A stretch of 64,000 nt of DNA, taken from assembly GCA_007132465.1 (NCBI GenBank), contig SLOP01000024.1, positions 1 to 64,000 on the forward strand, given 5' to 3'. The translations under genes were made by a program, and so were the position numbers. Shown piece by piece: positions 5,617 to 60,352 of the stretch (position 1 is the stretch's first letter; every line of letters begins with the position of its first letter). Source of the stretch: Candidatus Izemoplasma sp. GTDB lineage: Bacteria > Bacillota_I > Bacilli_A > Izemoplasmatales > Izemoplasmataceae. A model generated the notes under the pieces. That model did not search any database, was not told the origin of the DNA, and saw only the letters and a program-made list of their open reading frames with translations.

Positions 5617-5834
5617 AAAAAACGTCCTTAACCGAGTTAAGGACGATTGCTCGCGGTACCACCTTATTTCCGGCTTGCGCCGGCGCTTAGGGCCTTAACG
5701 CGGCGAACGACATCGGCTTATCACCGACGCTACTTCCGGGCGACTTTCAACACGTGTCCTTACCGATTCGCACCAACCACCGGCTCGCTTGAAGGGGAGC
5801 GTGTCTACTCCTCCCGTGCATCGTATTTATAGGT
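5617..5834 (-). promoter_or_regulatory. T-box leader (tRNA-Val sensing) of valS
   Basis: The minus strand carries the T-box core TGGTACCGCG (positions 5652-5663), which pairs with the uncharged tRNA acceptor end. Stem I has an AGTA bulge motif and a GGTGCGAA-type distal loop. A GTC triplet at 5742-5744 sits in the specifier loop and matches valine. The competing terminator is the 23-base hairpin at 5623-5645 followed by TTTTTT. Low charged tRNA-Val should favour readthrough into valS-folC. Confidence 0.93.
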
Positions 5835-17535: not shown

Positions 17536-17568
17536 AAGAAAAAGTTTTGTCCCGATCAGAGACAAAAC
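17536..17568 (-). terminator. Expression-platform terminator of the TPP riboswitch
   Basis: Stem GTTTTGTC/GGACAAAAC followed on the minus strand by TTTTTCTTTT, directly upstream of the thiT ribosome binding site. TPP binding to the aptamer should promote this hairpin and stop transcription. Confidence 0.85.
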
Positions 17569-17581
17569 CTGCGTGAAAAAA

Positions 17582-17667
17582 CGTTCCTACGCTGGCATTA
17601 CCCAGATCAGGTCGGGTCTATTCTCGTATCAAGAATATTCTCAGCCCGGTTCTCCGAGCTCCCCTGT
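17582..17667 (-). promoter_or_regulatory. TPP riboswitch (THI element)
   Basis: On the minus strand the aptamer shows GGGGAGCTC, GGGCTGAGA, then GACCTGATCTGGGTAATG and CCAGCGTAGGAACG. These are the hallmark conserved blocks of the thiamine pyrophosphate riboswitch, in the right order. It controls thiT through the terminator just downstream. Confidence 0.97.
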
Positions 17668-17683
17668 TTTGTTCGACAATCGT

Positions 17684-45236: not shown

Positions 45237-46268
45237 TCATAAACGGGTCAACAACATGGCGTCGCCAAAGGAGAAAAATCGGTAGTTTAACTCGATGGCA
45301 TGTCGATAGGCATCAAGGATGATCTCTTGGCTGGAAAACGCACTCACCAGCATCAAAAGCGTCGACTCGGGAAGATGAAAGTTCGTCAACAGCGCGTCGA
45401 CAACCTGAAAGGTGAATCCCGGGTAGATGAACAGGTTGCTGAAGCCGGCATCCGCCTGGATGTGTCCATGCTTGCGTGCCACGGTTTCAAGCGTACGCAT
45501 CGAGGTTGTTCCAACCGCCACAATGCGGCGCCTGGCTTGGATCGCTTGCCGAATAGTCGTCGCTGCGTCATCGTTCACGCGGTAAAACTCTTCGTGCATC
45601 GTGTGATCTTCGACGTTCTCCACCGATACCGGCCTGAATGTTCCTAACCCGACATGCAACGTGATGCGCACCACCTCAACCCCCATGCTTTGAAGTGCCG
45701 CTAAGTAGGATTTGGTGAAATGCAGTCCCGCCGTCGGCGCGGCAGCGCTCCCGGGTTCATCGCGATACACCGTCTGATAGCGGTCTTTGTCGTCAAGTTT
45801 TTCTTTGATGTACGGAGGCAAGGGCATCTCTCCGAGGGCTTCAAGCACCTCGAGAAAGATCCCGTTGTACTGCATCTTCATGCGCCTCAATCCTTGATCG
45901 AGCACCTCGACGCATTCGGCGATGAGCTGGCCTTTTCCAAAGATAACGCGCGTCCCGCGGCGTACTTTCTTCGCGCGTTTCACCAGACATTCCCACGCAT
46001 CATCGGTCTCTTGACGCAACAACAGCACCTCAACGACACCGCCAGTATCTTCTTTCTGACCAATCAAGCGTGCCGGCAAGACGGCCGTGTCGTTAATGAC
46101 GAGCACGTCTCCCTTTCGCAGGTGATTTTTCAGCGCCGTAAACGTGGTGTCGATGCGCTCACCAGTGTCACGATCAACAACGAGCAATTTAGACGCCGTG
46201 CGATCTTTCAGCGGTGTCTGAGCGATTAGGCGTTCGGGGAGGTTATAACGAAAGCGTTTCACCTTCAT
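45237..46268 (-). CDS. queA: S-adenosylmethionine:tRNA ribosyltransferase-isomerase
   Basis: Adds the epoxycyclopentane ring to preQ1-modified tRNA using the ribosyl part of SAM, the second-last step to queuosine. It is 343 residues. The N-terminal [18 protein letters not shown], the block [14 protein letters not shown] and [12 protein letters not shown] are diagnostic, as is [20 protein letters not shown]. It overlaps the ruvB stop by 4 bases, as in many bacteria. tgt lies about 7 kb away. Confidence 0.97.
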
Positions 46269-47272
46269 CCGAACAAGCCGCCTTGAAAGGGGATGTTCAT
46301 GTGCTTGTAGGCTTTTTCGGTCGCCACGCGTCCACGCGGTGTGCGCTGCACGAAACCAATTTTCAGCAAATACGGTTCATAGACGTCTTCCACCGTCGTC
46401 ACCTCTTCACCAATCGACGTCGCCAAGCTTTCCACACCGACGGGCCCGCCTCCATAGTTTTCAATGAGCCCTCGTAAATAATCGTGGTCTTTTTGATCGA
46501 GGCCAAGTGCGTCGATGCCGAGTTTATCGAGCGCGGTTTTGGTGATGTTAGTATCGATTTTTCCCTCGTTAAGCACGTCGGCAAAATCGCGGATGCGTCG
46601 AAACAACCGGTTGGTGATGCGCGGGGTGCCTCGGCTTCGCCTTGCGATTTCTTTCAAGCTGTCTCCGGCCACGACCGCTTCGTATATTTTTGCGGTTCGA
46701 GCGGCGATTTTCTCAAGCGACGCTTGGTCGTAGTATTCCAACTTATGCACCACGCCAAAACGTTCCCGAAGCGGCGCCGTCAAATCGCCAAAACGCGTCG
46801 TCGCCCCGATTAACGTAAACGGCGGCAAGTCCACCCGAATCGATCGGCTGGTTTCATCCTTGCCGACGATAAGATCAATGACAAAGTCTTCCATCGCTGG
46901 ATACAGCACCTCTTCAACAACGCGAGGCAGCCGATGTATTTCATCTATAAACAAGATATCGCCCGGTTCCAGGCTGGTGAGCAGCACGGCCAAATCCCCG
47001 CTTTTTTCAATGCTCGGTCCACTGGTAACCTTTATTTGCACACCGATTTCATTGGCGACGATGTTCGCAAGCGTCGTTTTACCAAGCCCTGGTGGCCCAT
47101 ATAGCAGCACGTGATCCAGACTTTCACGTCGCCCCTTGGCGGCGCGGATAAAAATGTCCATCATTTCTTTGACGTGATCTTGCCCGATGTACTCCGCTAA
47201 CGTCCTGGGACGTAAGCTCAGGGGTTCGATGTCAGTGTCGTGTCGTTCGGCGGACACGAGTCGTTCGTCCAT
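46265..47272 (-). CDS. ruvB: Holliday junction branch migration helicase RuvB
   Basis: AAA+ motor that drives Holliday junction migration with RuvA. I choose the ATG at 47272 (335 residues), because GAGGTG is then 6 bases upstream. The Walker A motif is [12 protein letters not shown], Walker B is LFIDEIHRL, and the Arg finger region [15 protein letters not shown] is present, followed by the winged helix domain. No ruvA precedes it, which is unusual. recU supplies the resolvase in this window. It is divergent from the giant coiled-coil genes. Confidence 0.97.
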
Positions 47273-47347: not shown

Positions 47348-47376
47348 TTGTCACTTACGCCTTTCTATGTTAAAAT
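47348..47376 (+). promoter_or_regulatory. Promoter of the giant coiled-coil operon
   Basis: TTGTCA, a 17-base spacer and TAAAAT; transcription is expected near 47383, which supports the GTG start at 47417. Confidence 0.75.
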
Positions 47377-47416
47377 AAGGGCAACATTTATGCCACAGCC
47401 GGAGGAGGTCAGCACG

Positions 47417-50400
47417 GTGAAAAATCCATTCGCCAACGACGCAGGCACAACCACGCGTTACGACATCGAAAAAAAATACAACCGGCACATCAAGCGCGAC
47501 TACCAAGCCCTATCTGACATCAACAAACGTTTCGACGCGCTGACCAAGGACTCCGAAGCTGCCTACGAACAAAAAGAGCGCGCTTTTACCAAAGAAAAAG
47601 TGCGCCTTGAAAAACAACACCAAGAAACCATTGACGCTCTCAAACGCACGCAAGCCAATGACATTGCGACGATTGAAAAAACAATTGCCGGACTGAAAGC
47701 CACCATACGCACCGACATCGAAGCGTTTAAACTCGATCACAAAAAATCAGCAATGTTAATTGAAGACGATATCGAAGCGCTTGAAAACGAGCGAAAAGTC
47801 AAGGTTAAGGAAATTGAAAAACGCCACCTTGAAGCGATTAAGACCTACGAAGATAAACTTAACAAGTTCAAGCTAAACCTTAAGAAAAATCTCAAACGCA
47901 TGGCCGATTGCGTCGATGAAGAAATCGACGCCCTTTCACGTGTTGTCAACGATGAGAACGCCGTCTCACAAGCTCAATACGACGCCCTCCAAGAAGACCT
48001 TAAGGCCCATCGTGAAGCGCTTGAAAAAAGCTTGCATGACGAAAAGCAGGCCGCCGGTCACCACATGAAAGCCGTCATCAACGCCACCAATGCGTTTCGT
48101 CGACGCTTCAACCAACGCCTCAAAGACATCGATGCACAGATTACCAATGAGCGCACCGCCATGGAAGCACCGTTTGTTGAGTGTCAAACAACGCTCCAAA
48201 CTTTACTAGAGGACACCAAGGCCTACCTCAACCGAATCAAAGAGGCACTTAAACTCGACTTCGATTTCGAGAAAACCCGTCTCGAAAACGCCATCAAGGC
48301 TGCACCACAATCCGGACTCACCAAAGAAGACATTCGCGACCTTAATCAACGGCTAAAATTAGCCGAAATGCGAAAATCAGCCCTTGAGACCCAAGCGTCC
48401 ACGGTCATTGAATTGATTGGTCGCCACGCCAAGGCCGCCGACAAAGCCATCACCAGTTCTCTAAGCACCGTCGGCCACGCCTTTGACGCCTTCAGCGAAG
48501 GCCTCAAAGCTAACCACAACCGCATTAAGGCCATCTTCGCCGTCGTCGAAGACCACGTCGAACAAACCGAAGCCAAAGCGGCACGAACCACCGAAGCGTT
48601 GCATCCCCAAGCCACTTTCAAAACGTTAAACGCCTTTGTTGAGCGCTGCTTTGTGGCGCTCAACGAGCACGAAAAAAACCGTGCGGCCCTACACATCGAC
48701 GCCATCAAAAAACTCGAACAGGTTCACCGTCAAATCGATGACATCGAGGGATTTCTTGACAGTTTGGACGCACGCAAAAAAATCAAAATCAATAATCAAA
48801 AACTTCACGTCGAACAAGAAGACGCCGCGTTGCGTTATGACATGCGCATCGCCAAGTTGCGCTTTGATCTTGACAAGCTAACGTGCGAACACGAGGCGCG
48901 CATAAAAAAACATCAACACCTGAGCCACATCAAAGTGCTCCGTGAACAAGAGCGCCTCAATAATACTAAGGCTGAGCACGACCATGCCATCACCATCAGA
49001 CAAATCGAACTTACCCGCTCGGTATCACACGCCGTCCACCAACTCCGAAAGACTCATGTCGAACGTGACATTGCGTTACTTGAAACCCGACGCGACATTG
49101 AAAAAGAGAAACATCGCGTCGAGACGTCGATTGAAAAACACGCCATCAACCGCGAGTTCGACATGGAGATTAATGAACTCGTCGGCGAAACACGTGAAAC
49201 CATCACCAAACTCGACTACGAGATCGACGCCATCGAACAAACCTTGCAGTTGGCCCATGAAAAACGCAAAAAACGACGCGACATTGAACGCGACAACCAT
49301 GACAAAGCGAAACGCACCTTGGTTCGCACCTTCGAACGCGACCAGCAAACATTGAAAGACGACATCGCAGACGCCAAGCGTCGTCGTGATGATCGCCTCG
49401 CCTTTATCGACCGCGCCCTAGAACGAGAAACCGAGGCCGCCCTCAAAAACATTCGAGGAATGCACGACACCATCAACCATGAACGCGCCCTTATAAAGCC
49501 CCACTTCGAACCACTACGGCACATGCTTAAAGCGTATGAACACACCATGAATGACCCTGAATCCAGCTTGAAATCTTTGCTCGTGCTGGTCTCTAGACCA
49601 TTTACCAAACAGCTTGAAACCTGGCTTGAGCATGCTTATGAACGCGTCTTTGAAGCCACGCGATTTCAACACGACGTCGTGCTTAAACGCAAACTTGAAG
49701 GCATCGACGACAACAAAAAACAACAAGCCATTCGCGATAAAGCCCATCAAGAACACGATCGTCAAATACAGAAAATCACGAAACAAAAAGAGCACGTGCT
49801 TGAAGCCTTCTTACGTCGCCTTGAAGAGGCGAAGAAAAAGATTAGCAGCGATCAAAAAACCACCATCCGCATCATCAAAGACCGTCTCGCCCCAGCCTAT
49901 CAATTCATCCATGAGAACGTTGAGGCCGAACACCGAAGCCTCGATGAAGCCATCGTCGCCATTTACGAAAGTTTGATTGTTGCCGATCGTGCGCTCCTCG
50001 AGCGCGCTCGAGAAAACCATAAAAAGGCGCGCGCGCAAACCACCGCCAAGTTCGACGCGGAAATCCGTCCGCTCGAAGTCGCCCTTGAAGAAAACCAAGC
50101 CACTCACCAAGCCGCCCTTGAGGAACATCACGCCACCTTTGAGGCGAAACTGGCCGAACGCACCACCACCGTCGATAAGCAAATCAACGCCCTAAAAACG
50201 GAAAGCGAGCGCCTAAACACTTCCAAGCAGCATCAAGAAAAGCGAACCCTTGAAGCCATCGATCGGCTCAATGCTGAACGCGATCAAGCGCTGGCTGAAA
50301 TTGACCAACAACACCGACGCGTCCAAGCAGAGCGCGAGAAGCAAACCACGCAGAAACTTGACAAGCTTAAAAGTCGGCTTGACGATGCCGGACAAATCCT

Positions 50401-50920
50401 CGACTACGAGCAAAAAGCACACCAAAGCAAACTCGATGCGGCCGACAACCTCCGTCAAGAGACGCTTGATCGCAATGCCCAAACCACCGAAAGCCGTATT
50501 CTTGAAGAACGCGAAGCCATCGAAGCCATTGAAGGCGCGACCAAACAACAGCTCGATGTGCTGAACGCGAAGCTAAAAGAAACCAACGATGCGCACGAAG
50601 CACAAATGCTCTCAGGCGCACAGCGCTTAGAAGAGAGCCTCGATGAAGCCGCTCGAAGCATCGACCGTGACGCTCGAGTGCAACGCGAAAAACTCACCAC
50701 CTTAATCGCCGATGTGCACGCGCATCGCGATGCGCTCAGACACGCCGAAACCAACAACTTCAAGAAACTGAAACAAGCCTTGGTCGACGCCACCGACATC
50801 TTGCGTGACACCTTCCATATCGAAGCCACGGCACCGGCTAAAGCACTCACCGCCTTACAAGATGATTTTATTGACCGCCTCGTTCGCGAGACAGCCCGCA
50901 CCATCGCCGAACGCGACTGA
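47417..50920 (+). CDS. Giant coiled-coil protein 1, unknown function
   Basis: Not recognised. From the GTG at 47417 the protein has 1,167 residues; GGAGGAGG lies 8 bases upstream, and the ATG at 47390 would sit almost at the transcript start. Nearly the whole chain is a charged helix pattern rich in Glu, Lys, Ala, Arg, Asp and His, with very few Cys and a single Trp (near LETWLEHAY). No signal peptide, membrane segment or P-loop is seen. Short hydrophobic breaks, such as KSLLVLVSRPFTKQLETWLEHAYERV, mark possible hinges. It lacks the head and hinge domains of SMC proteins. A structural or scaffold role is possible; it is followed 16 bases later by a second such gene. Confidence 0.75.
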   Translation: MKNPFANDAGTTTRYDIEKKYNRHIKRDYQALSDINKRFDALTKDSEAAYEQKERAFTKEKVRLEKQHQETIDALKRTQANDIATIEKTIAGLKATIRTDIEAFKLDHKKSAMLIEDDIEALENERKVKVKEIEKRHLEAIKTYEDKLNKFKLNLKKNLKRMADCVDEEIDALSRVVNDENAVSQAQYDALQEDLKAHREALEKSLHDEKQAAGHHMKAVINATNAFRRRFNQRLKDIDAQITNERTAMEAPFVECQTTLQTLLEDTKAYLNRIKEALKLDFDFEKTRLENAIKAAPQSGLTKEDIRDLNQRLKLAEMRKSALETQASTVIELIGRHAKAADKAITSSLSTVGHAFDAFSEGLKANHNRIKAIFAVVEDHVEQTEAKAARTTEALHPQATFKTLNAFVERCFVALNEHEKNRAALHIDAIKKLEQVHRQIDDIEGFLDSLDARKKIKINNQKLHVEQEDAALRYDMRIAKLRFDLDKLTCEHEARIKKHQHLSHIKVLREQERLNNTKAEHDHAITIRQIELTRSVSHAVHQLRKTHVERDIALLETRRDIEKEKHRVETSIEKHAINREFDMEINELVGETRETITKLDYEIDAIEQTLQLAHEKRKKRRDIERDNHDKAKRTLVRTFERDQQTLKDDIADAKRRRDDRLAFIDRALERETEAALKNIRGMHDTINHERALIKPHFEPLRHMLKAYEHTMNDPESSLKSLLVLVSRPFTKQLETWLEHAYERVFEATRFQHDVVLKRKLEGIDDNKKQQAIRDKAHQEHDRQIQKITKQKEHVLEAFLRRLEEAKKKISSDQKTTIRIIKDRLAPAYQFIHENVEAEHRSLDEAIVAIYESLIVADRALLERARENHKKARAQTTAKFDAEIRPLEVALEENQATHQAALEEHHATFEAKLAERTTTVDKQINALKTESERLNTSKQHQEKRTLEAIDRLNAERDQALAEIDQQHRRVQAEREKQTTQKLDKLKSRLDDAGQILDYEQKAHQSKLDAADNLRQETLDRNAQTTESRILEEREAIEAIEGATKQQLDVLNAKLKETNDAHEAQMLSGAQRLEESLDEAARSIDRDARVQREKLTTLIADVHAHRDALRHAETNNFKKLKQALVDATDILRDTFHIEATAPAKALTALQDDFIDRLVRETARTIAERD

Positions 50921-50936
50921 GAAAGGATGACCCCGG

Positions 50937-53807
50937 ATGGCCAAAAAACATGAACTCGCGACTCTGTCAAAAGCGAACCGCGATTTGGCCCTGCTCATCG
51001 ATGAAGATTTGCAAAAAGAATCCGAACTCCTGCAAAAACTCATCAAAGAGGTTTACGAAGCGAATCAGAAGGTCAAAGAAGGACACCTTCGTCGCGTTGA
51101 GGAGACCAACGAAAAACTGGATGCCCTCAACCGCGAAATCGATGCCCTAAAAAAGGACATCGACACCCGTGAAACCTCGACCACAGAGCAGTTCCAACAT
51201 CTGCTAGACGCCCGCGACGACATCCACGCCGCGCTACGTTCGTTGCGTCTTTTTGATGCGCGTTATTTGCGCGACCATCCGCTCGCCACGCATCTTGCAA
51301 TGCTAAAAAATCGCATCAAAGCGTTTTTCGTCACCGAACGACAAAGCGACATTGACATCGGCGATGCCATCATCGAACCCCTTAAAACCCACACCCTCGC
51401 TTGGGTTGAACAATTGTTTGACACCACCGAAGAGGTGTTTGCTACACGCTTGGATGGCGAGCAAGCCCTCCCGACCCTCATCAAACGACACAACGAAACC
51501 TTCACGTCGTTTCAATCATCGCTCGAATGCCTCACCAAAGGCTTAACCATCATCGATAACGAACGCACCCACTTCTACTACACCTCGACCGATGATGACT
51601 TTTTCAGTGAAAAAATCGACCGCATGTACGAACGGGCCGTCGGGAAACTCGAACAAAGAATCGCCGAGAGCGAATCCACACGCGACGAAAAATTAACGCG
51701 AATCGACGCCGAACTCGAGACCCTCGAGAGCGATACCCTCGGCGGATTTAAACAAAAGTATCAAAAACGGCTTGAAGCCGAAGAAAAACTTCGAAACAGC
51801 TTGCAAGACGATTTAAAACAACTGCGATTTGATATTATGACAGCCGAAAAACAAGGCGATGAGAAAAAACTCGCCAGCCTGCTTAAAACCTACGATCGCA
51901 AAGAAAAACAAAACTTGTCGCTATACGAGGAAAAAGTGAAGCGGTTGGCGAAACAAAAGACCAAACGTCAACGCGATAAACTGCAAGCTCAACGCAAACT
52001 CATTGAGCGCAAACATGAAGACGAACTGTACAAACTAAAACTGCAGCGAGAAACCGAGAAGCTAAAATTCAAAGAATCGACAGCGCTTTTCAAAGTTCGT
52101 GAAGACCACAAAGCCCTCGAAGGCGATCGCAAAGTGAACGCACGCTTTATCGACGAACTCAAAGGCTTCCACCAAGGCCTCAGCGACTACAAAAAAACGT
52201 TGGTTCGCTTCGCCGAAAGCCTACAAAAACTGGTGCTCGCCGAACACGGGGACTTTGCGCTCGGAGAACTTAAAGCTCTGGAACAATTAACCGGCTTAAA
52301 GAAGGCCTTTAAAACGCTTGAGCTCGACCTCGCCGAACGGCTAAAAAAGAAAGCCGACGACGAAGACCGTTTCGTTTTGACGCTACAAAAAGCGCTCGAC
52401 GAGACGGCTGAGAACATCCACTTTTCGGAACGCCACAAAGCCCTATTAGAGAAACAGAACCGCGAGGTTAAGCGAGCCGACATCGACCGCATCCGCGCAC
52501 AGGAGGATGCGAAGAACGATCGCATCTACTACGAAGGTCAAGTCGAAATCGCCGAAAAAGAATACGAGTTGCAGTTGCTGAAAATTCGCTCGCTTTATCA
52601 AGGCGAAATCGACATCACCAAAAGCCAAGCCGAACGACTCAATGTCGGCATGGGCGTGAATGAAGCGATGGTGCGCACGACCGTTGAAAGTCAACGGTTG
52701 TTTGCTGAACAACAAATTAAGTTTGCCCACAAGGAGTACGACGCCCGTGTTGAAAACATCGAACGCGCCCGCGCTCAAGAACTTGAATACGCTCAACAAA
52801 AACTCGCCAAAGCCGAACAACCTTACTTGTATGAAAGAAAGGCTTTGCTTGAGGAACGTGATGAAAAACTCGAGACCATCGAGTACCGTCTAGCGCTCTT
52901 CGTCGAAGAAGAAGATAAAGAAGCGCTGGAGGCACAAAAAGCTCGACTGCTTGATCACTACGGCGAACGCCTTAATGAACTCGACGAAGCCAAAGCGAAC
53001 GATGCCCACATCATCCGTTATAAAAAACAGATTGCCGCGGCCGAACAGCGGGCTGAAAACGCCACGAAAGACGCCGAAGGGCTAAAACAAAAAACCGTGG
53101 AAACGTTTGAGTCCTTGCTGAAACAAAGCGAAGAAAAGCTTCAGCTTTTTGAACGTCGCGAAGACTCGAAACTGATTCCCTACATCGAATCAGAATCCAC
53201 TTCTACAGCAAAAACCCGCCTCAACGAAGCACTCGCAGAAGCCAAAGCGCAACGCGATGAAAAAGTTGCCGAACCACAGCAACGCATCGCTGACATCGAC
53301 GCCAGACTCCAGGAACTTGAAGCCGATACCGCCATCGACCACGCCTCCCTCGAGGCCGACAAAAACACGCTTGCCAAGGAACACCACGAGGCAATGCAAG
53401 CCATTGAAACGCGTTATCGTGAGGCGTTTGACGACCTTGACAAGAAGACCAAAGAAACCGAACATAGTTTCGGTGAAGCGCGTGAGAAACTAACCAATGA
53501 GGAATCAAGCATGTCTGTTGAAACCCTTAAAAGTGCCTTACTTAAAGAGCTAAAGGCAACAAAAACTTCGCTTGAGGGCACCACCAAAAAGCAGCTGCTT
53601 GACATTCAAGCAGACTTGAAGAACGCGCTTAACGAACTGGACGACGAACGCGTCAAACTCGAAAAGAATATCCAACCCACCATTCGCGCCTTTAAACGTT
53701 ACTTGAAAACGGTCACACGGGCACAAGACCCTAAACTCAAGCCCATTCAGAAGCGGCTTGAAGACGAACACAAAGCGAACGTGGCCGCCATCGATAGCCG
53801 GTATTAG
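50937..53807 (+). CDS. Giant coiled-coil protein 2, unknown function
   Basis: Not recognised. A 956-residue protein with GAAAGGATG before its ATG, 16 bases after protein 1. It is again almost all charged coiled coil, with no membrane segment, signal or nucleotide site. A less regular region at about 100-230 (LRLFDARYLRDHPLATHL and DIDIGDAIIEPLKTHTLAW) may be a small folded domain. The central part is a long Lys/Glu/Arg helix, and Tyr-containing patches such as YEGQVEIAEKEYELQLLKI follow. The two proteins are different in sequence but of one style, so they probably act together. A strong terminator closes the operon. Confidence 0.75.
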   Translation: MAKKHELATLSKANRDLALLIDEDLQKESELLQKLIKEVYEANQKVKEGHLRRVEETNEKLDALNREIDALKKDIDTRETSTTEQFQHLLDARDDIHAALRSLRLFDARYLRDHPLATHLAMLKNRIKAFFVTERQSDIDIGDAIIEPLKTHTLAWVEQLFDTTEEVFATRLDGEQALPTLIKRHNETFTSFQSSLECLTKGLTIIDNERTHFYYTSTDDDFFSEKIDRMYERAVGKLEQRIAESESTRDEKLTRIDAELETLESDTLGGFKQKYQKRLEAEEKLRNSLQDDLKQLRFDIMTAEKQGDEKKLASLLKTYDRKEKQNLSLYEEKVKRLAKQKTKRQRDKLQAQRKLIERKHEDELYKLKLQRETEKLKFKESTALFKVREDHKALEGDRKVNARFIDELKGFHQGLSDYKKTLVRFAESLQKLVLAEHGDFALGELKALEQLTGLKKAFKTLELDLAERLKKKADDEDRFVLTLQKALDETAENIHFSERHKALLEKQNREVKRADIDRIRAQEDAKNDRIYYEGQVEIAEKEYELQLLKIRSLYQGEIDITKSQAERLNVGMGVNEAMVRTTVESQRLFAEQQIKFAHKEYDARVENIERARAQELEYAQQKLAKAEQPYLYERKALLEERDEKLETIEYRLALFVEEEDKEALEAQKARLLDHYGERLNELDEAKANDAHIIRYKKQIAAAEQRAENATKDAEGLKQKTVETFESLLKQSEEKLQLFERREDSKLIPYIESESTSTAKTRLNEALAEAKAQRDEKVAEPQQRIADIDARLQELEADTAIDHASLEADKNTLAKEHHEAMQAIETRYREAFDDLDKKTKETEHSFGEAREKLTNEESSMSVETLKSALLKELKATKTSLEGTTKKQLLDIQADLKNALNELDDERVKLEKNIQPTIRAFKRYLKTVTRAQDPKLKPIQKRLEDEHKANVAAIDSRY

Positions 53808-53838
53808 CAGAAGCCTCCCGCAGGCTTCTGCTTTTTTT
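53807..53838 (+). terminator. Terminator after the coiled-coil operon
   Basis: Ten-base stem GCAGAAGCCT/AGGCTTCTGC followed by TTTTTTT, starting at the stop codon of protein 2. Confidence 0.92.
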
Positions 53839-54081: not shown

Positions 54082-54591
54082 ATGACCAAGATTTATGTGT
54101 TGTTCATCAGTCTATTTGCCGCGCTTGCGCTCGTTGCGTGTGGCGGACAAGAAGAAATCGAACTGACAATCATCGATTTGCTCGAGTATGACGGCAGCGG
54201 CGATAAGGCGTATTTTGCTTACGAGGGCGTTATTTATGACGTGACCGATTCAGACCTGTGGGAAGATGGTAGCCATTTCGGACGTTATGCCGGTTACGAT
54301 TTAACCAGTCAACTTGAGGGAGCGCCTCACGGCACGGAAATGTTTGATAACGTGCCTCAGGTCGGTGTCATGATTCCGCTCGAACTCTCCACAGAGGACC
54401 TTACTGAGTACGATGGTGCATCGCATGTCTACATGTTCATTGCTTTCGAGGGAACCATTTATAACGTGACTAACGCCGAAGCCTGGGAAGATGGCGAGTT
54501 CAATGGCCTCTTGCCCGGAAACGACCTAAGCGATGAACTCACCGCAGACGATGTAGAAGGCCTGCCTGAAGTCGGCGTCTTGGTGGACTGA
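54082..54591 (+). CDS. Lipoprotein with two cytochrome b5-like (heme/steroid-binding) domains
   Basis: A 169-residue secreted lipoprotein: the signal peptide ends in the lipobox LVAC, putting the lipid-carrying Cys at residue 20. Two tandem domains follow. Each has the pattern LxEYDG...AYxAxEGxIYxVT...W.DG. The first continues GSHFGRYAGYDLTSQLEGAPHG and holds both His residues expected of a heme site. The second reads GEFNGLLPGNDLSDELTADDVEG, where both His are lost. Such small b5-like domains bind heme or other ligands at the cell surface. GAGGTGG precedes the start; the upstream promoter is unclear. Confidence 0.82.
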   Translation: MTKIYVLFISLFAALALVACGGQEEIELTIIDLLEYDGSGDKAYFAYEGVIYDVTDSDLWEDGSHFGRYAGYDLTSQLEGAPHGTEMFDNVPQVGVMIPLELSTEDLTEYDGASHVYMFIAFEGTIYNVTNAEAWEDGEFNGLLPGNDLSDELTADDVEGLPEVGVLVD

Positions 54592-54749: not shown

Positions 54750-54785
54750 CAAAAAGCCATCCGGAGTGGTCCGGATGGCTTTTGT
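54750..54785. terminator. Two-way terminator after deoB and the lipoprotein
   Basis: An 11-base stem AGCCATCCGGA/TCCGGATGGCT with TTTTT on the minus strand for deoB and TTTTGTTATTT on the plus strand for the lipoprotein transcript. Confidence 0.88.
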
Positions 54786-55960
54786 TATTTCAAGTGTTTA
54801 AGGAAACTGCTACCGACGTCGGTGGTGGGGACATTGAAATTTTCGGAAATCGTGGCACCGATGTCGGCAAACGACGAGCGCGTCGCAAGCGCGCCGCCTT
54901 TCAGTCGTGGATTGTAGACGAGCAATGGCACGTATTCGCGCGTGTGGTCGGTGCCGGTGTGCGTTGGATCGTTACCGTGGTCGGCGGTCACCATCAGCAA
55001 ATCGCGTTCACCAATAAGATCAATCAGATCGGCGAGTTGTCGATCGAAGGCTTCGAGCGCTTTTTTGTAGCCTTCTGGGTCACGACGATGCCCGTAGAGG
55101 GCGTCGAAATCCACAAGGTTCAAAAACGCTAAACCGGTAAACGGTTTGTGTGCGTAGGCGATGACATTGTTCATGCCTTCGTCGTTGTTTTTTTGCTTGT
55201 GGCTTTCGGTGATGCCTTCGCCGTCGTAGATATCGTTGATTTTCCCAAAGGCGATGACGTCTTTCCCGCTTTCTTTAAGGTAATCGAGCGTGGTCTTCGC
55301 AAAGGGCTTCAACGCGTAGTCTCGCCGGTTTGATGTCCGCTCAAAAGCACCTTGCTTATCGCCGATAAACGGACGGGCAATGACACGACCAACCTTATAC
55401 TTTTCATCCAACGTCAGTTCGCGCGCGATTTCACACGCCTCATAAAGAGCGTCCAACCCAACTTTGTCTTCGTGTCCCGCAATCTGCAACACGCTGTCGG
55501 CGCTTGTGTAGACAATCAAATCCCCGGTTTTTAGCTGATGCTCGCCCAGTTCATCAAGGATGACGGTGCCGCTTGAGGCTTTGTTGCCAACGATGTTTCG
55601 GCCGGTTCGGCGGGCCAGCTCATCGATTAATGAATCGGGAAACCCTGTTTCGGTGAAGGTTTGGAAGGGCTCGGTAACGCGCAACCCCATCAGTTCCCAA
55701 TGGCCGGTCATCGTGTCTTTTCCAACGCTTAGTTCTGCCATTTTTCCATAGTAACCGAGCGGTTTTTTCATGGGGCTAACGCCTTGAATCTCCGTCAAAT
55801 TTCCATACCCGAGTTTTTCCATCGTCGGCAGAGCGATACCACCGGTGGCTTCAGCCAGGTTTTTGATGGTGTTAGCGCCGACATCGCCATACTCGGCTGC
55901 GTCTGGCATCTCACCGACACCGACGCTGTCGATGACAACGAGAAAGATGCGTTCGTACAT
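54785..55960 (-). CDS. deoB: Phosphopentomutase
   Basis: Converts (deoxy)ribose-1-phosphate to the 5-phosphate, linking the nucleoside phosphorylases to deoC. I choose the ATG at 55960 (391 residues), with AAGGAG 8 bases upstream. Alkaline-phosphatase-fold motifs are [15 protein letters not shown] near residue 6 (metal Asp), the nucleophile Thr in [13 protein letters not shown], and the metal His/Asp in [20 protein letters not shown]. It is 5 bases downstream of xerD, in the same order as in Bacillus. Confidence 0.96.
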
Positions 55961-55965
55961 GATAA

Positions 55966-56865
55966 TCACTCCTTGTTTTTCGCGTGTGGGTGGTAGGCAT
56001 CGTACACGGCAATCAGTTGTTTACGGTTGATGTGTGTGTAGATTTCTGTGGTTGAGACATCCTGGTGACCCAGCATCTCTTGCACGTAGCGAAGGTCGAC
56101 GCCGTTTTCCAGCAAGTGTGTGGCAAAGCTATGCCTAAGCGTATGCGGGCTCACGTCTTTGTCGATGCCTGCATCGGCGGCTGTCGCTTTGAGAATTTTG
56201 TAAAAACCGACGCGGCCAATGGGCCGTCCATGACGGTTTAAAAACACATACGGTGTTGGGGCTTTAAGCAAGGTTGGTCGGGCGGCTTCGAGGTAGCGTT
56301 TGAGCGCGGATGCAGCCTCGCTTCCAATGGGTACAATACGCTCAGCACCACCTTTGCCGGTGACGTTAATGAACCCCATGTTAATGTGAAGATCATCAAT
56401 CTGTAAAGCGATGAGTTCGCCGATTCGCAGCCCTGAGCCATAAAGCAGTTCAACCATCGCGACGTTGCGACGCGCCAACGGTGAATCACCTTGGGCAGCA
56501 TCGAGCAATGCCTCTATTTCTTCCACGCTCAGCACGGCAGGTAGTTTTTTGGCGCGTTTTGGTCGTCTGATGGCGAGGATGATGTTGTCGTTGACCAGCT
56601 TTTCTTCCAACAAAAACTGATGGAACTTGTTCAATGCACTCAGTTTTCGATTGACGCTTGAGGCCGCAACATGTTTTTTTCGTAACGTCATTAAGTAATT
56701 ATGCACGTGGTCTTTGGTGATGTGCTCGGGGCCGTCAATGCCTCGCGCTTCTAAGTAGTTGACGTAAGCCGAAAGATCGCTCATGTAGGCGCTCACAGAA
56801 TTCTTCGAGAGCGCGTGTGAGGCTTTGAGTTCATACTCGTACTCTTTTAACAACCTACTTAACAT
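55966..56865 (-). CDS. xerD: Tyrosine recombinase XerD
   Basis: Site-specific recombinase that resolves chromosome dimers at dif. I choose the ATG at 56865 (299 residues) with GAGGTG upstream. The core-binding domain is N-terminal. The catalytic residues are Arg in GLRIGEL, HxxR in [15 protein letters not shown], His in [15 protein letters not shown], and the Tyr in that last block. XerD is the closest label; XerC is a possible alternative, but the deoB neighbour favours XerD. Operon: hemW, xerD, deoB. Confidence 0.92.
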
Positions 56866-59997: not shown

Positions 59998-60352
59998 AAA
60001 CCACGTTTTCATAAGCCATGTTCTGTGCCTTTTCAGGCGACAATCATTTATCTGCGGTCGATGACCGCCCCTTCGTCGGTTCGTTTCCCGTTGAAGGGCG
60101 CCCCTACCATGTTTTGGGTTTCTAGCTTGCGGGGTTTACCCGTTCCACTCCGAAGATTGCTCCTCGGCATCGTCACTGTGGCACTTTTAAAGGGTCCAAC
60201 GCCCTGAAGGGCGCCTACCCAGCCGTCACCCTTGCGGGTGCCTGACGTTATGGTTTCCGTCAGCACAATCACTACGGGCATCACAGCCCGTGCTAGCATG
60301 GACTTTCCTAACCCGCCCGAAGGCGAGCTCGATTGTCAAAAACGTAGTTTAC
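59998..60352 (-). ncRNA. rnpB: RNase P RNA (Bacillus-type, class B)
   Basis: The minus strand shows the conserved RNase P blocks in order: GGAAAGTCCATGCTAGCACG, then GTGCCACAGTGACGATG, GGAGTGGAACGGGTAAACCCC, AGAAACCCAAAACATGGTAGG, AGATAAATGATTG and ACAGAACATGGCTTAT. These match the Bacillus class B RNA closely. The ends pair as helix P1 (AAACTACGTTTT with AAAACGTGGTTT, one G-U). That sets the RNA near 60352 to 59998. The 5' end lies only about 4 bases after the pnp stop, and I see no good promoter there. Confidence 0.97.

Follow-up and report, generated by a model that had tools for sequence, protein, structure and literature searches.

It is an open problem how free-living cells manage to live and divide when they have no cell wall, and a locus from the order Izemoplasmatales raises it in molecular terms: could a pair of giant helical proteins give such cells internal support? 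The stretch of DNA that we analyzed (64,000 nucleotides, hereafter the window) comes from an Izemoplasmatales MAG of 1.43 Mb with about 51% GC, and it encodes two large proteins, CC1 and CC2, that make a concrete candidate for this role. Their merit as a candidate is that the giant rods are inherited by a whole wall-less order, are absent elsewhere and are in none of the family libraries searched. The absence of SMC from the same order raises a second question, namely what organizes its chromosome.

A two-gene operon beside ruvB

A reading of the sequence alone had described two plus-strand genes of 1,167 and 956 residues, preceded by a clear promoter and strong ribosome binding sites and followed by a terminator. 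The coordinates and the orthologues bear this out, and we conclude that CC1 and CC2, which are separated by a gap of 16 bp, form an operon. The features of the locus are as follows.

46265 to 47272, minus strand: ruvB, divergent neighbor, conserved synteny
47348 to 47376, plus strand: promoter TTGTCA-17-TAAAAT with extended TG, in the divergent ruvB-CC1 intergenic region
47403 to 47410, plus strand: ribosome binding site AGGAGGTC, 5' of the CC1 GTG start
47417 to 50920, plus strand: CC1, all-helical rod protein of 1,167 aa, GTG start at 47417
50937 to 53807, plus strand: CC2, all-helical rod protein of 956 aa
53806 to 53838, plus strand: intrinsic terminator, 11-bp stem and T-run (53806 to 53832), directly after CC2
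54785 to 55969, minus strand: deoB, convergent neighbor, conserved synteny in families f1 and f3

The CC1 promoter (-35 and -10 boxes, spacing and extended TG) and the ribosome binding site are kept in L036, from the same genus, and in L037, from another genus; the promoter is found in three genera. L036 has its own, different terminator stem at the same place after CC2. An alternative CC1 start at the TTG in 47348, which would give 1,190 aa, was rejected because that TTG falls within the promoter. Between the window and L036, dN is 0.17 for CC1 and 0.13 for CC2, with synonymous sites saturated, and dN/dS is about 0.11 and 0.07, respectively. These ratios, similar to those of queA and an MFS gene, point to purifying selection on both genes. 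Given the low dN/dS and the orthologues across the order, the two reading frames are not chance.

Some other elements of the window deserve mention. Between CC2 and deoB (54082-54591, plus strand) lies a gene for a lipoprotein-like protein of 169 aa. This protein carries a cytochrome b5-like domain (PF00173, E 6e-7), apparently with a second copy of it, and does not appear at this place in the gene maps of relatives. On the minus strand lie a T-box leader (5636-5830), a TPP riboswitch (17566-17675) and a class B bacterial RNase P RNA (60007-60344).

Straight helices with conserved predicted turns

The sequence-only reading called both proteins heptad-like, and this part has to be revised. Hydrophobicity recurs with a period of about 3.62 residues (3.63 in CC1, with a power of 6.9 vs at most 1.2 in shuffles; 3.62-3.69 in CC2), and its autocorrelation peaks at lags 7, 11, 18 and 29, with lags 21, 28 and 35 at or below zero. 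An SMC coil used as a control in the same test gave a period of 3.51. CC1 and CC2 are therefore straight or hendecad-type helices, not heptad coiled coils. Hydrophobic residues make up 40-80% of a single face (about -60 to +60 degrees), and the rest of the helix mixes acidic and basic residues; the pI is mostly 5.1-7.1. As had been claimed, the window proteins contain no transmembrane segment (maximal 19-residue hydropathy 1.05 in CC1 and 0.63 in CC2), and no nucleotide-binding site in the form of a Walker A motif (GxxxxGK[ST]) occurs in any of 57 orthologues.

AlphaFold models, built from three sequences and of low confidence (pLDDT 62-64, pTM 0.26-0.33), are all helical, with single helices of up to 261 residues. 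Helix breaks are predicted at residues 438-452 and 712-718 of CC1 and at residues 555-575 of CC2. Conservation concentrates in two segments:

48731 to 48790, plus strand: most conserved segment of CC1 (aa 439-458), at a predicted helix break
52551 to 52793, plus strand: conserved core of CC2 (aa 539-619), around the predicted hairpin turn at aa 555-575

Conservation in the two proteins is strongest at the CC2 break: R567, E600 and R604 are each kept in at least 90% of 29 sequences, and the core block carries 2.4-2.5 bits of information vs a median of 1.6. Since the conserved segments coincide with the first break of CC1 and that of CC2, it is residues at predicted rod turns that are conserved, while the rods drift.

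Distribution across the order

We searched 395 Bacilli genomes, 55 from Izemoplasmatales and 340 others, with profiles that combine sequences of the order's three families (f1, f2 and f3). Within the order, CC1 was found in 50 of the 55 genomes, CC2 in 49 and both in 48. The recurrence of the two genes as neighbors in related genomes had been named beforehand as support for a functional pair, and it holds, for they are side by side nearly throughout. Neither protein was found in the other Bacilli (0/340 at E<=1e-9), so that, as judged by profile search, the pair is restricted to one order within this sample. Beyond Izemoplasmatales, a small local search gave an ORF for a helical protein of 639 aa (L105:4988-6907, minus strand, in G145 of family f9) that matches both profiles weakly (E 1e-11 to 1e-12 in that search).

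In each of the three families sampled, the pair is next to ruvB or close to it. The gene order in f1 and f3 is nearly always queA and ruvB on one strand, CC1 and CC2 on the other, and then deoB, xerD and hemW on the strand of ruvB, sometimes with at least one extra gene before deoB. Initial sequence searches gave no match for orthologues in f2, where two large ORFs poor in proline and glycine occupy the place beside ruvB. Their sizes are:

L108: 1113 + 931 aa
L128 (G043): 1114 + 956 aa; three further genes in between
L130 (G041): 1108 + 965 aa; three further genes in between
L132 (G039): about 1110 + 971 aa; three further genes in between

Comparing profiles with profiles aligned these ORFs collinearly with their counterparts, f2-CC2 with CC2 at E 3e-14 (columns 11-744 on 19-753) and f2-CC1 with CC1 at E 1.6e-9 (columns 13-455 on 9-465). 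The crossed comparisons of CC1 with CC2 were weak (E 0.051 and 4e-4), and reversed decoys gave E 0.07 and 0.028. Another f2 genome (G049) encodes a 609-aa coiled-coil-like ORF, also poor in proline and glycine, beside ruvA (L129:2964-4793, minus strand), which is either unrelated or another rod protein. Across the order the identity of the pair drops to about 11%, and lengths vary by only about 2% (2.2% and 1.6%). Both cultured species, X. coldseepsis zrk13 (taken as G025) and H. nucleasis zrk29 (taken as G040), have the pair.

The sequence-only reading took absence of the genes next to an intact ruvB as evidence against its proposal. Such absence does occur in three MAGs. In G015, ruvB and deoB are 12 bp apart and the pair is gone; in G036, both genes are gone and the extra gene before deoB is retained; G007 keeps a shortened CC1 of 702 aa (L097:7679-9787) and no CC2, a partial loss that we call real. 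Because the same contigs also carry the flanking genes, secondary loss is the simplest reading of these cases. The proposal is partly supported, and losses in three lineages with intact flanks make the pair dispensable and not strictly essential. Four further genomes (G001, G003, G004 and G053) were rejected as true absences: their assemblies also lack ruvB and are uninformative. Incomplete pair counts come also from G056, whose contig starts inside CC2, and from G045, whose contig starts about 1 kb away from CC1.

Searches for known families

The same reading had named a clear match to a known family as evidence against its proposal. The window proteins gave no hit in Pfam, NCBIfam or PHROGs, and Pfam over all orthologues and PADLOC on the window proteins returned chance-level matches only. 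As it had stated, the head domains of SMC and RecN are lacking, with no Pfam hit to the N- or C-terminal ABC head of SMC, RecN or MukB. Foldseek with both low-confidence models gave no match below E 1e-3. A sequence search of the PDB retrieved only apolipoproteins, designed bundles and viral fusion helices, which we judged compositional; the apolipoprotein family PF01442 matched 2 of 23 CC1 members (best E 7e-4) and 0 of 25 CC2 members at E<=0.001. The DivIVA-like domain PF05103 was not among the Pfam matches up to E=10 for f2 CC1, nor among the matches listed for 28 CC1 and 29 CC2 sequences. Membership in that family was rejected: the N terminus of the f2 CC1 in L108, GFGYSPAEVERYF, loosely resembles the GYD motif, a likeness that the others do not share. 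No description of these proteins was found in open-access papers. These results support the view that the pair is undescribed, as far as family libraries and the open-access literature go.

CC1 and CC2 had been said to differ from each other, in agreement with BLASTP, which gives no match between them (best E 0.13). A profile match at E 2e-11 might suggest paralogy, but we distrust it, as the CC1 profile hits its own reverse at 5e-13.

Coupled evolution and a possible scaffold

Evolutionary distances of CC1 and CC2 in 19 genomes, controlled for ruvB, deoB, xerD and lepA, have a partial correlation of 0.82, the highest of 28 gene pairs (the next is 0.62). This coupling supports a shared function for the putative partners, though the common composition and the alignment noise of two fast coiled-coil genes may inflate it. 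The pair has no enzyme, membrane or ATPase features, and its straight rods are of fixed length, with conserved turns and coupled evolution. The best reading is therefore a structural scaffold: CC1 and CC2 could be co-transcribed, co-evolving subunits of one cytoplasmic structure specific to Izemoplasmatales, a reading to which we give a probability of about 0.5. Each chain would form long, straight rods that double back at hairpin turns, and CC1 and CC2 would pack laterally through their hydrophobic faces to give a heteromeric bundle or filament. Such a bundle may support shape, division or partitioning in wall-less cells, acting like Scy/FilP of Streptomyces or HMW2 of Mycoplasma.

Published work infers that peptidoglycan was lost in the common ancestor of Izemoplasmatales (PMC10868615), and the pair first appears at this node as well. 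This is one coincidence, from a single event, not a correlation. Several points count against a scaffold: the structure models are of low confidence, the cultured species are wall-less and coccoid, with no obvious shape needing a skeleton, and the pair is not universally needed, being lost in some members (G015 and G036, and partially G007). A bolder proposal, which we consider a long shot, is that a new kind of skeleton emerged when the wall was lost and, in this SMC-less order, assumed bulk chromosome positioning as well. It would consist of two giant rods of straight helix that build a defined heteromeric strut, with a conserved hinge in CC2.

Alternative explanations

The pair might instead organize or tether the chromosome and partly replace the missing SMC, with long rods that bridge DNA or hold the origin or ParA in place. 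Among 90 Izemoplasmatales genomes, 89 have no match to a full-length SMC model, and a search for the SMC hinge matches, within the order, only G033, on a 4.6-kb contig (G033:C29, L120) with 43.7% GC vs 49.9%, which is probably contamination. The rod lengths of CC1 and CC2 are SMC-like, and the binding of ParA by Scy (PMC3718342) also counts for a tether. Yet 156 of the 340 Bacilli genomes outside the order lack both a hinge match and the pair, and because SMC loss is thus common without the pair, replacement is possible and not indicated. CC1 and CC2 have no DNA-binding motif, head or ATPase, their pI is not basic and some members have lost them, so we consider a chromosomal role unlikely. A coat on the membrane surface strikes us as similarly doubtful. 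Here, extended amphipathic helices would lie on the inner membrane face and stabilize it without a wall, like apolipoproteins or PspA/Vipp1, whose period is near 3.6. The straight-helix period, the one broad hydrophobic face and the wall-less hosts would suit such a coat, and apolipoproteins are the only recurrent weak profile matches. Class A lipid-binding helices are defined by Lys/Arg at the border between the polar and nonpolar faces; in CC1 and CC2, unlike these, Lys/Arg is not enriched there and charges are evenly mixed. Moreover, the apolipoprotein matches, at E 1e-3 to 1e-4, are weak and reflect composition, and the near-invariant polar residues of CC2 suggest specific contacts.

The patchy losses could also fit lineage-specific defense genes or mobile cargo at a favored integration site, and CC1 matches the coils of LmuB in PADLOC, at chance level (E 2e-4). 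This idea is disfavored, and we hold it very improbable: the position is fixed, inheritance is vertical and order-wide, CC1 and CC2 appear to be under purifying selection, neither was found in viral contigs or phages, and the neighbors (ruvB, queA, deoB and xerD) include no ATPase or nuclease partner. Identity with Lamassu LmuB was rejected, the match being to the coil only, with no Walker A and no partner of the LmuA or LmuC type.

Comparison with known systems

For the scaffold reading, the nearest working analogue is Scy/FilP, an analogy that does not imply superfamily membership. Scy is an almost all-hendecad cytoskeletal protein of more than 1,000 residues encoded next to FilP (PMC9858780; PMC3718342), and its repeat of 51 residues over 14 turns gives a period of 3.64 (PMC9858780). 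CC1 and CC2 resemble this system in their adjacent genes, long all-helical rods and restriction to one lineage, and as predicted soluble scaffolds; the hendecad-type rod, with a period of 3.62 vs 3.64, is a shared feature, not proof of homology. They differ in that they have no match to a DivIVA-like domain, are similar to each other in size (FilP is about a quarter of the size of Scy) and occur in hosts that are wall-less and from a different phylum. HMW2/HMW1 of Mycoplasma pneumoniae provides a giant soluble coiled-coil internal scaffold in a wall-less relative among the Bacilli (PMC4923136). Unlike CC1 and CC2, HMW2 (1,818 residues) forms coiled coils intermittently along its length and is a component of an attachment organelle, whereas the cultured Izemoplasmatales are free-living coccoids; we set it beside the pair by description only.

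The likeness to SMC, RecN and MukB lies in the rod length, the predicted long helices and the conserved hairpin turn of CC2, which recalls a hinge. CC1 and CC2 lack the heads, the Walker A motif and the SMC hinge, and their period of 3.62 vs 3.51 in the SMC control departs from heptad arms. Foldseek matches to SMC-type rods were all above E 1e-3, with a TM of at most 0.15 against whole rods. A MukB/JetC-like ATPase of 1,078 aa is encoded in G037 (L133:2619-5855, plus strand) after ORFs of 474 and 201 aa, an arrangement that resembles a Wadjet-type system.
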